From Rhizobium sp. Q54 (GTDB taxonomy: Bacteria > Pseudomonadota > Alphaproteobacteria > Rhizobiales > Xanthobacteraceae), in assembly GCA_945861895.1 (NCBI GenBank), contig CAMAWF010000009.1, forward strand, positions 1-64,000: DNA of 64,000 nucleotides, read 5' to 3'. A model generated the notes under the pieces. The model was not told the DNA's origin. It was given only the letters and a program-made list of their open reading frames with translations, and searched no databases. Every line of letters begins with the position of its first letter. Position 1 is the first letter of the stretch. Positions 41,904 to 44,900 of this stretch are shown here, piece after piece. The position numbers and the translations under genes were made by a program.

Positions 41904-44900
41904 ATGTTCATGTTCATGAATCACCCGACCGACAAGCCCCGCCGGCCCGACGCCCGCGTGATCGCGATCCGCGGCGCGCGCGAGCACAATCTCAAAAACG
42001 TCGATCTGGAAATCCCGCGCGACCGGCTGGTGGTGTTCACCGGACTGTCCGGTTCCGGCAAATCCTCGCTCGCCTTCGACACGATCTATGCCGAGGGCCA
42101 GCGCCGCTATGTGGAGTCGCTGTCGGCTTACGCGCGGCAATTCCTCGAAATGATGCAAAAGCCGGATGTCGATCAGATCGACGGTTTATCCCCGGCGATT
42201 TCCATCGAGCAGAAAACCACCTCGCGTAATCCCCGCTCCACCGTCGGCACCGTCACCGAAATCTACGACTACATGCGGCTGCTGTGGGCGCGCGTCGGCG
42301 TGCCCTATTCGCCCGCAACGGGCCTGCCGATCGAAAGCCAGACCGTGCAGCAAATGGTCGACCGGGTGATGGCGCTGCCGCAGGGCACGCGGCTTTATGT
42401 GCTTGCCCCCGCCGTGCGCGGCCGCAAGGGCGAATACCGCAAAGAGCTCGCCGACTGGATGAAGCGCGGCTTCCAGCGCGTGAAGGTCGACGGCAAGTTC
42501 TACGAAATCGCCGACGCGCCCACGCTCGACAAAAAGTTCAAGCACGACCTCGACGTGGTGGTCGACCGCGTGGTGGTCGGGCCAGATCTCGCCACACGTC
42601 TGGCGGATTCGCTGGAGCAATGCCTGAAGCTCGCCGAAGGGCTCGCGGTGGTTGAATTCGCGGACGCTCCTTCTACCTCCCCCCTTGCGGGGGAGGTCGC
42701 CGCGAAGCGGCTGGAGGGGGGTAAGCGACAGACATCGGCACAAGCAACCACCCCCCACCCCAACCCTCCCCCGCAAGGGGGGAGGGAGCAAACTGAGCCC
42801 GCAGCAAAGAAGGTGGCCAAGATCCACGATCAGCAGAGCGGCCCTGAACGTCTGATCTTCTCGGAAAAATTCGCCTGCCCGGTGTCCGGCTTCACCATTC
42901 CGGAAATCGAGCCGCGGCTTTTTTCGTTCAACAATCCGTTCGGCGCCTGCCCGAAATGCGGCGGTCTCGGCATCGAGCAGAAAATCGACGCCGACCTGGT
43001 GATCCCCGACAAGGACGTAACGCTGCGCAAGGGCGCCATCGCGCCGTGGTCGCGCTCGTCGTCGCCCTATTACACCCAGACGCTGGAAGCGCTCGGCAAG
43101 CACTTTCGTTTCACGCTCGACAGCAAATGGAAGGACCTGCCGAAGCGCACGCAGGACGCCATCCTGCACGGCTCCGGCGAGGACGCCATCAAGTTCGTCT
43201 ATGACGACGGTCTGAAGGGCTACACGACCAGAAAGCCGTTCGAAGGCGTGATGACCAATCTCGAACGCCGCTACCGCGAGACCGAGAGCGAATGGGCGCG
43301 CGAGGAGATCGCGAAATACTTCACCGACATCCCCTGCTCGGATTGCAACGGCTACCGGCTCAAGCCCGAGGCGCTGTGCGTGAAGATCGCGGGCCAGCAT
43401 GTCGGCGAAGTGGCGGAAATGTCGGTCAAGCGCGCGGGCGAATGGTTCACCGAATTGCCGCAACACCTCACCGCCAAGCAGAACGAGATCGCGGTGCGCG
43501 TGCTGAAGGAAATCCGCGAGCGGCTGAAATTTCTGGTCGATGTGGGCCTGGAATATCTCACGCTGGCGCGCGGCTCCGGCACGCTCTCCGGCGGCGAGAG
43601 CCAGCGCATTCGCCTTGCCTCGCAGATCGGCTCGGGGCTCACCGGCGTGCTCTATGTGCTCGACGAGCCGTCGATCGGCCTGCACCAGCGCGACAATGCG
43701 CGCCTGCTGGAGACGCTGCGGCGGCTGCGCGACCTCGGCAACACCGTGATCGTGGTCGAACACGACGAGGACGCCATCCGCGCGGCCGACTATGTGGTCG
43801 ATGTCGGGCCCGGCGCCGGCGTGCACGGCGGCCACATCGTCGCGCAAGGCTCGCCCGACGACATCATGAACGACAAGAATTCGCTGACCGGAAAATATCT
43901 CACCGGCGAATTCGGCATTCCGGTGACCGAACGGCGCGCGCCCAACAAACGCCGCACGGTGAAGGTGGTCAACGCGCGCGGGCATAATCTGAAAAACATC
44001 ACGGCGGAAATTCCGCTCGGCCTGTTCACCTGCGTCACCGGCGTTTCCGGCGGCGGCAAATCCACGCTGCTGGTCGACACGCTGTATGCCGCCGTCGCGC
44101 GCAAGCTCAACGGCGCGTCGGAAGCCCCCGCCCCGCACGACAAGATCGAAGGCCTCGAACATCTCGACAAGGTCATCGACATCGACCAGTCGCCGATCGG
44201 CCGCACGCCGCGCTCGAACCCCGCGACCTACACCGGCGCGTTCACGCCGATCCGCGAATGGTTTGCAGGCCTGCCCGAAGCCAAAGTGCGCGGCTACGAG
44301 CCCGGCCGCTTCTCGTTCAACGTCAAGGGCGGACGCTGCGAGGCCTGCCAGGGCGACGGCGTCATCAAGATCGAGATGCACTTTCTGCCCGACGTTTACG
44401 TCACCTGCGATGTCTGCAAGGGCAAGCGCTACAACCGCGAGACGCTGGAGGTGACGTTCAAGCAAAAGTCGATCGCCGACGTGCTCGACATGACGGTGGA
44501 CGAGGCGGCGGAGTTCTTCAAGGCGGTGCCGCGCGTGCGCGACGTGCTCAAGCTGCTGCAACGCGTGGGGCTCGGCTACATCCATGTCGGCCAGCAGGCG
44601 ACGACGCTGTCCGGCGGCGAGGCGCAGCGCGTCAAGCTCGCCAAGGAACTGAGCAAGCGCGCGACCGGCCGCACGCTTTACATTCTCGACGAGCCGACGA
44701 CGGGCCTGCATTTCCACGACGTGGCGAAATTGCTCGACGTGCTGCACGAACTGGTGGAGACCGGAAACACGGTGGTCGTCATCGAGCACAATCTGGAAGT
44801 GATCAAGACCGCCGACTGGATCATCGACCTCGGCCCGGAAGGCGGCGACGGCGGCGGCGAGATCGTCGCGGCGGGAACGCCGGAGGATATTGTAAAGGTC

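Follow-up and report, generated by a model that had tools for sequence, protein, structure and literature searches.

A palindromic repeat read in frame within uvrA, at a linker that appears to have received different repeats in related genomes

The window, i.e. the whole analysed stretch of 64,000 nucleotides, contains a uvrA gene with a palindromic repeat inside its coding sequence, and further palindromes located outside it. The features are given below, with the evidence used for each in parenthesis.

41904-44984, + strand: uvrA, 1026 aa (open frame, UvrA family score)
42660-42839, + strand: UvrA linker, residues 253-312, the recurrent landing site (2r6f alignment, insert survey, pLDDT)
42667-42790, + strand: two-palindrome element in full with short outer arms, borders approximate (fold and codon view)
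42676-42696, + strand: first palindrome, translated as T-S-P-L-A-G-E (palindrome search, translation)
42765-42785, + strand: second palindrome, inverted relative to the first, translated as P-P-P-Q-G-G-R (palindrome search, translation)
33345-33470, no strand assigned: copy outside uvrA, same layout, divergent sub-type (palindrome search, comparison)
44996-45014, no strand assigned: single palindrome directly past the uvrA stop codon (palindrome search)
63942-63960, no strand assigned: left half of a further two-palindrome copy, cut off by the end of the window; a seryl-tRNA synthetase frame lies next to it (BLAST)

The uvrA reading frame runs without a stop from 41904 to 44984, and its product scores 1602 bits against the UvrA family, for a NCBIfam cut-off of 1147. 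Since this is the one UvrA match among those listed for the window's genome, out of 13 counted in all, the decorated gene is the only UvrA seen there. The first-pass annotation had spoken of an essential repair gene; uvrA is a repair gene, but not a generally essential one. A degenerate second copy of the uvrA 3' end (44906-44984) was spotted by eye at about 45702-45784, some 700 bases downstream; short matches to the UvrA C-terminus also occur downstream of uvrA in genomes G022 (two) and G016 (one), among the matches listed. The first zinc module (42876-42959, UvrA residues 325-352) reads CPVSGF...CPKC: the first Cys pair has a Ser as its second member, as do all 30 aligned UvrAs, and Geobacillus reads CPYC at the same point.

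The annotation had described, at 42675-42786, a palindromic repeat inserted in frame in uvrA, with the layout of an outer copy at 33344-33471. Both palindromes were found, the frame across them is open, and the outer copy has the same layout, though it is divergent and absent from the 42 BLAST matches of the uvrA element in its genome. The element is about 120 bp long with its ends, and 110 bp between the outer palindrome ends. Its strand folds at -46.8 kcal/mol with DNA parameters, compared with a mean of -27.5 for shuffled sequences (z -6.4), and none of 200 shuffles was as stable; in the fold the two palindromes form a single long stem that encloses smaller hairpins. When folded as RNA, the gene has its most stable 120-nt segment, at -77 kcal/mol, overlapping the UvrA linker. 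An Rfam search of the whole window at gathering score gave a tRNA located elsewhere as sole match, and at low threshold the region 42600-42850 gave 13 matches, all well under their own gathering scores.

The position initially proposed for the insert, within a linker just ahead of the first zinc module, is borne out by structural comparison. In the alignment to Geobacillus chain 2r6f, residue 252 falls on residue 256 and residue 313 on residue 258, so that residues 253-312 form a loop without counterpart. This linker measures 68 aa; in the listed records from Bradyrhizobium and Afipia it has 30-33. The [13 protein letters not shown] stretch spans 99 residues, against 57 in genome G020, whose UvrA is the most similar to the window's among the matches listed, a difference of 42. 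By these comparisons, the element is estimated to lengthen the linker, which precedes the first zinc module, by about 36-42 residues; the 40-50 residues of the earlier estimate were slightly high. Aligning the protein with its relatives, as had been suggested, yielded this net gain, but not the exact borders, which cannot be defined because the linkers of relatives differ, nor a target duplication, none being readable with confidence from the junction and codon view of the insert sites. In an AlphaFold2 model, pLDDT is below 50 over residues 257-312 (24 to 36 in blocks of 10 residues), between flanking strands at 247-252 and 316-320; the model was built on a 30-row alignment, is of moderate quality (mean pLDDT 73.2, pTM 0.62) and has other low stretches too. 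The insert is accordingly predicted to be disordered, probably a floppy loop. Seven encoded peptides were counted for composition: proline and glycine make up 11 to 16 of their 34 to 39 residues, and each contains 3-4 residues among V, I, L, M, F, W and Y.

With 42 BLAST matches in its own genome, the uvrA element exceeds a chance occurrence. These matches were merged by hand into 24 distinct places, nine of which are in frame inside genes, namely uvrA, the uvrB tail, glyS, leuS, valS, hrpB, nrdJ, thiC and an indolepyruvate oxidoreductase gene; thiC is cut by a contig end and stays below its cut-off, and the oxidoreductase passes for its beta half only. The search for other proteins containing the segment, suggested on first reading, returned at least eight genes besides uvrA, nine decorated genes in all, on a wider scale than that reader could see. 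In uvrB, the copy is located in the tail, between the UVR motif and a KPxLDEMGPG stretch that genomes G002 and G009 also have. The glyS gene (L002, glycyl-tRNA synthetase beta-subunit) holds three in-frame repeats of two kinds, the second being a CGTC-like dimer; at this second site relatives have unlike sequence of widely varying length. Four places are at contig ends (C28, C31, C47, C131), which suggests that the repeat probably breaks the assembly and that its copy number may be underestimated. Of the remaining 11 places, five have identified genes on both sides (two at L122, one each at L125 and L134, and L120, between histidinol dehydrogenase and a SDR-like frame read by eye), five have one identified flank (L003, L124, L126, L136, and L137, counted here, where the copy is part of a long frame and a trypsin/PDZ match follows it) and one has neither (L121).

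No gene split out of frame by the element was seen at the examined copies, whose flanks were identified in part; the nine in-gene copies were recognised through their open frames, and frame-keeping is therefore partly built into their detection. Within genes, 16 pattern-matched palindromes fall in codon phases 0, 1 and 2 in 6, 9 and 1 cases, a suggestive distribution of observations that are not independent. Nine further places from the peptide search were read by eye (C127, C102, C24, C49, C88, C20, C30, C23, C50), and none showed anything resembling a copy within a conserved gene; C30 was rejected as an element copy, being seemingly a chance match without palindromes. The sole dnaE2 match in the window's genome is under the family cut-off.

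UvrA was matched in all 60 genomes searched, own included (in G006, G014, G019, G024 and G030 by weak ABC-type matches only). From these, 30 loci were kept and combined with 80 species-genome records among the matches listed, for a total of 110 sequences, own included, with two pairs of identical genes. The annotation had allowed for a similar segment being present in most related UvrA proteins. This is not the case: the linker is longer than 36 aa in only 15 of the 110, and 36 aa or shorter in the other 95. It contains the most stable 120-nt segment of the gene in 10 of the 15 long-linker genes and in one of the 95 short-linker ones (L027), with a Fisher p of 7e-10 calculated on related sequences, duplicates included. 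The ten are the window's gene, L010-L014 without exception, Rhodoplanes tepidamans (L056), and Microvirga (L060), Devosia (L071) and Methylocystis (L105) MAGs; the long linkers L015, L046, L061, L065 and L068 do not have the strongest fold. The lead of the linker is clear in seven cases (4 to 21 kcal/mol) and below 2 kcal/mol in L012, L013 and L060, and inspection of the L012 linker revealed no clear palindrome. Fold ranking, applied to 108 sequences (the linker pattern lost two) and then to all 110, replaced a count of inverted repeats that required a perfect stem of 10 bp and located the linker by a loose pattern; this count was discarded as not discriminating (8 of 108 linkers, against 56 places elsewhere).

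Internal inserts of at least 10 aa fall in the linker in 11 of the 110 sequences and elsewhere only once, near the C-terminus (L082); inserts before residue 15 were set aside, because the stop-to-stop reading runs upstream of the start there. Together with the predicted disorder, this supports the suggestion, made on first reading, that the linker could tolerate an insertion. Repeat status was checked in their own genomes for the inserts of the window, L011, L071 and L014. For the insert of L011, a head-head dimer whose ends are CGTC/GACG, 46 matches were found in G018 and 36 in the genome of Rhodoplanes (L056). The insert of the Devosia MAG has 30 in its own genome, and that of L014 six, at three places of G036, itself included. 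The genome of L010 (G025) has 12 matches to the peptide profile of the window's element. As judged from these sequences, the UvrA linker was entered by different repeats in different genomes and, since the families differ, a single inherited insertion is excluded for it.

A profile of the encoded peptides matches 24 of the 60 genomes at E values of 1e-6 or lower. All 24 are among the 36 genomes that belong to the window's genus, own included, and none among the 24 others; as it was built from this genome's copies, other repeat families would be missed. Among 30 aligned leuS genes, the same loop is occupied in the window's genome, G011 and G014, and G003 has a shorter P/R-rich stretch; the first glyS insert is present, among 30 sequences, in the window's genome and G014, and the site of the third is cleanly empty in G014, G018 and G010. 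In UvrB, G002 and G009 carry an insert at one and the same place, before the region matched by the UvrB model; G002 has a further one in the C-terminal tail, positioned as in the window's genome, where G009 is empty. The error-prone polymerase DnaE2 (L255, L267, L271, L277) contains one to three in-frame repeats in several same-genus genomes: two in G011, three in G002 and one in a frame of G019 which is DnaE2-like by likeness only; two of the sites are common to G011 and G002, and G019 joins at one. Peptide matches occur at two places in one DnaE2 frame of G022. An element lies inside the domain of a RluA-type synthase (G009); in MutY (G035) and TruB (G025) it comes before the conserved domain and may be upstream of the true start. 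Of 15 further places in long frames, several (e.g. L281, L284, L285, L288-L290) are not assigned to a conserved gene.

The position of the element, its open frame, its copies, the recurrence of the sites and the predicted disorder are best accounted for, with a probability of roughly 0.8, by a REPIN/MITE-like palindromic repeat in the uvrA linker, tolerated as a neutral loop. A non-autonomous repeat with a hairpin would have entered the linker region of uvrA in this Hyphomicrobiales lineage. Transcribed and translated as part of UvrA, it would form a loop of about 36-42 residues, disordered and rich in Pro and Gly, which separates the UvrB-binding domain from the first zinc module. Such a repeat, presumably mobile, would spread at low copy number. 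Insertions within genes would survive only when the frame is kept and the site is flexible, so that the same few sites (UvrA linker, UvrB tail, LeuS loop, GlyS loop, DnaE2 loops) would be occupied repeatedly. The sharing of sites could in part reflect target preference, or old insertions followed by losses.

The latter possibility, namely that the shared leuS and glyS sites are old inherited insertions, later lost or moved by recombination, rather than independent events, is less likely, though it carries some weight. The glyS inserts of the window's genome and G014 resemble each other at the junction and are almost identical in their core, the leuS inserts of the window's genome and G011 have a common left junction, and in the leuS tree the position of G014 has weak support. 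Against inheritance, the window's genome is in both trees the sister (0.98) of G020, which has no inserts and keeps, at the first glyS site, the codons common to other relatives; G011 is located inside a supported clade (0.99) of insert-free leuS; and no local transfer signal is found in flank identity. The glyS element is more similar between the window's genome and G014 (0.88) than its flanks are (0.80, 0.78), a weak difference that was not taken as evidence of function. For the UvrA linker, the difference between repeat families leaves no place for a single old insertion. A rather unlikely extension is that repeats enter certain genes non-randomly, at fixed positions, above all DNA-repair (uvrA, uvrB, dnaE2, mutY) and tRNA-synthetase genes, either by preferential insertion in damage-transcribed genes or because the loops modulate repair; if so, the UvrA linker would be a natural insertion port, used repeatedly. 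An adaptive insertion, altering the activity of UvrA (and UvrB, DnaE2, MutY) and hence repair or mutation rate, appears unlikely. Repair genes do recur in a plain list of cases, with uvrA and uvrB in this genome, uvrB in G002 and G009, dnaE2 in G002, G011, G022 and, by likeness, G019, and mutY in G035, ahead of the conserved domain; this matches a trend in the portion of a 2013 report considered here (PMC3733652), which speculates on an adaptive role of REP-tagged repair genes. Yet loop sequence and repeat family differ between species, and many decorated genes (glyS, leuS, valS, thiC, nrdJ, hrpB) are not repair genes.

The strong hairpin, with its RNA fold of -77 kcal/mol, could also suggest that the element is removed after transcription, by RNA excision or ribosome bypassing, or in an intein-like manner, so that the loop would be absent from the mature protein. 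This is very improbable: all nine recognised in-gene copies, detected through their open frames, are free of stops and preserve the reading frame, although removal of this kind would not require it, the sole Rfam match of the window at gathering score is a tRNA elsewhere, and about 120 bp is far under the size of inteins. That the insert is an assembly artefact, an eventuality already raised in the first-pass annotation, has a negligible probability: although the genome is in 194 contigs and four copies are at contig ends, the uvrA copy is located mid-contig, both its flanks belong to the same gene in frame, and other inserts occupy the same UvrA place in other genomes, including that of the isolate Rhodoplanes tepidamans DSM 9987 (L056).

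The insertion of a neutral repeat remains our preferred reading. The data contribute a further, free-living lineage, with at least nine genes carrying one repeat family in frame, and a protein site which, by sequence comparison, accepts different repeat families across genera. The shared sites provide natural replicates for how selfish repeats turn into protein sequence, and let one ask whether the excess of repair genes noted in 2013 has a cause.

Among known systems, REPINs consist of two inverted palindromes in one long hairpin, and the same layout is found here, as in BIMEs. Unlike REPINs with a cognate RAYT, the window's genome (G000) has no match to the Y1/RAYT transposase (PF01797), in a search positive in 5 of 14 control genomes; PF01797 is present in only 2 of 35 same-genus relatives. 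The likeness to Rickettsia palindromic elements (RPEs), proposed on first reading, is supported: in the part of PMC2229807 drawn upon, RPEs are palindromic repeats of 105-146 bp, located in intergenic regions and in frame in conserved genes, and the product of a RPE-bearing guanylate kinase gene is reported to be translated and active. The repeats described here are likewise of about 100-150 bp and are found both between genes and in frame in conserved genes. The likeness is one of description; the present repeats differ in belonging to another order and a free-living lineage, and in that several repeat families occupy one landing site.

The occurrence of such an element in uvrA of a free-living bacterium, presented as notable in the annotation, has a precedent. 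According to the portion of PMC3733652 (2013) used here, free-living bacteria have GTAG/CGTC REPs within their genes: the cases comprise uvrA, in Opitutus terrae and Thioalkalivibrio, as well as dnaE2, tRNA pseudouridine synthase B (truB) and tRNA synthetases; uvrB of Rickettsia conorii is among the intragenic cases, and repair genes are remarked upon. The window's family mostly lacks the GTAG tag, which in that superfamily stands at the foot of the stem: of 66 stem ends, 2 are followed by TAG, so that no more than 2 of 33 palindromes carry it, exact tags being counted, and one of the two is the uvrA copy itself. The family is provisionally left unclassified, and might possibly be a published REP family with degenerate tags. 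The L011 insert, which is not the window's, has CGTC at 7 and GACG at 93, as in CGTC REPs, defined by CGTC at the outer ends of the dimer with tail CCA inside; CGTC is present at one dimer end only in L056 and at neither in L060. A literature search did not return the encoded peptide letters, nor, among the matches listed, a post-2013 paper that deals with REPs inside repair genes. That report, as far as its text was used, and the present data both have palindrome dimers within genes in free-living bacteria. There, recB is given as having a common insertion site and other genes of one class as having different sites; here, several sites are common between genomes. What is added to the published uvrA REPs is therefore the sharing of landing sites, and the repeated insertions in DNA-repair and tRNA-synthetase genes.
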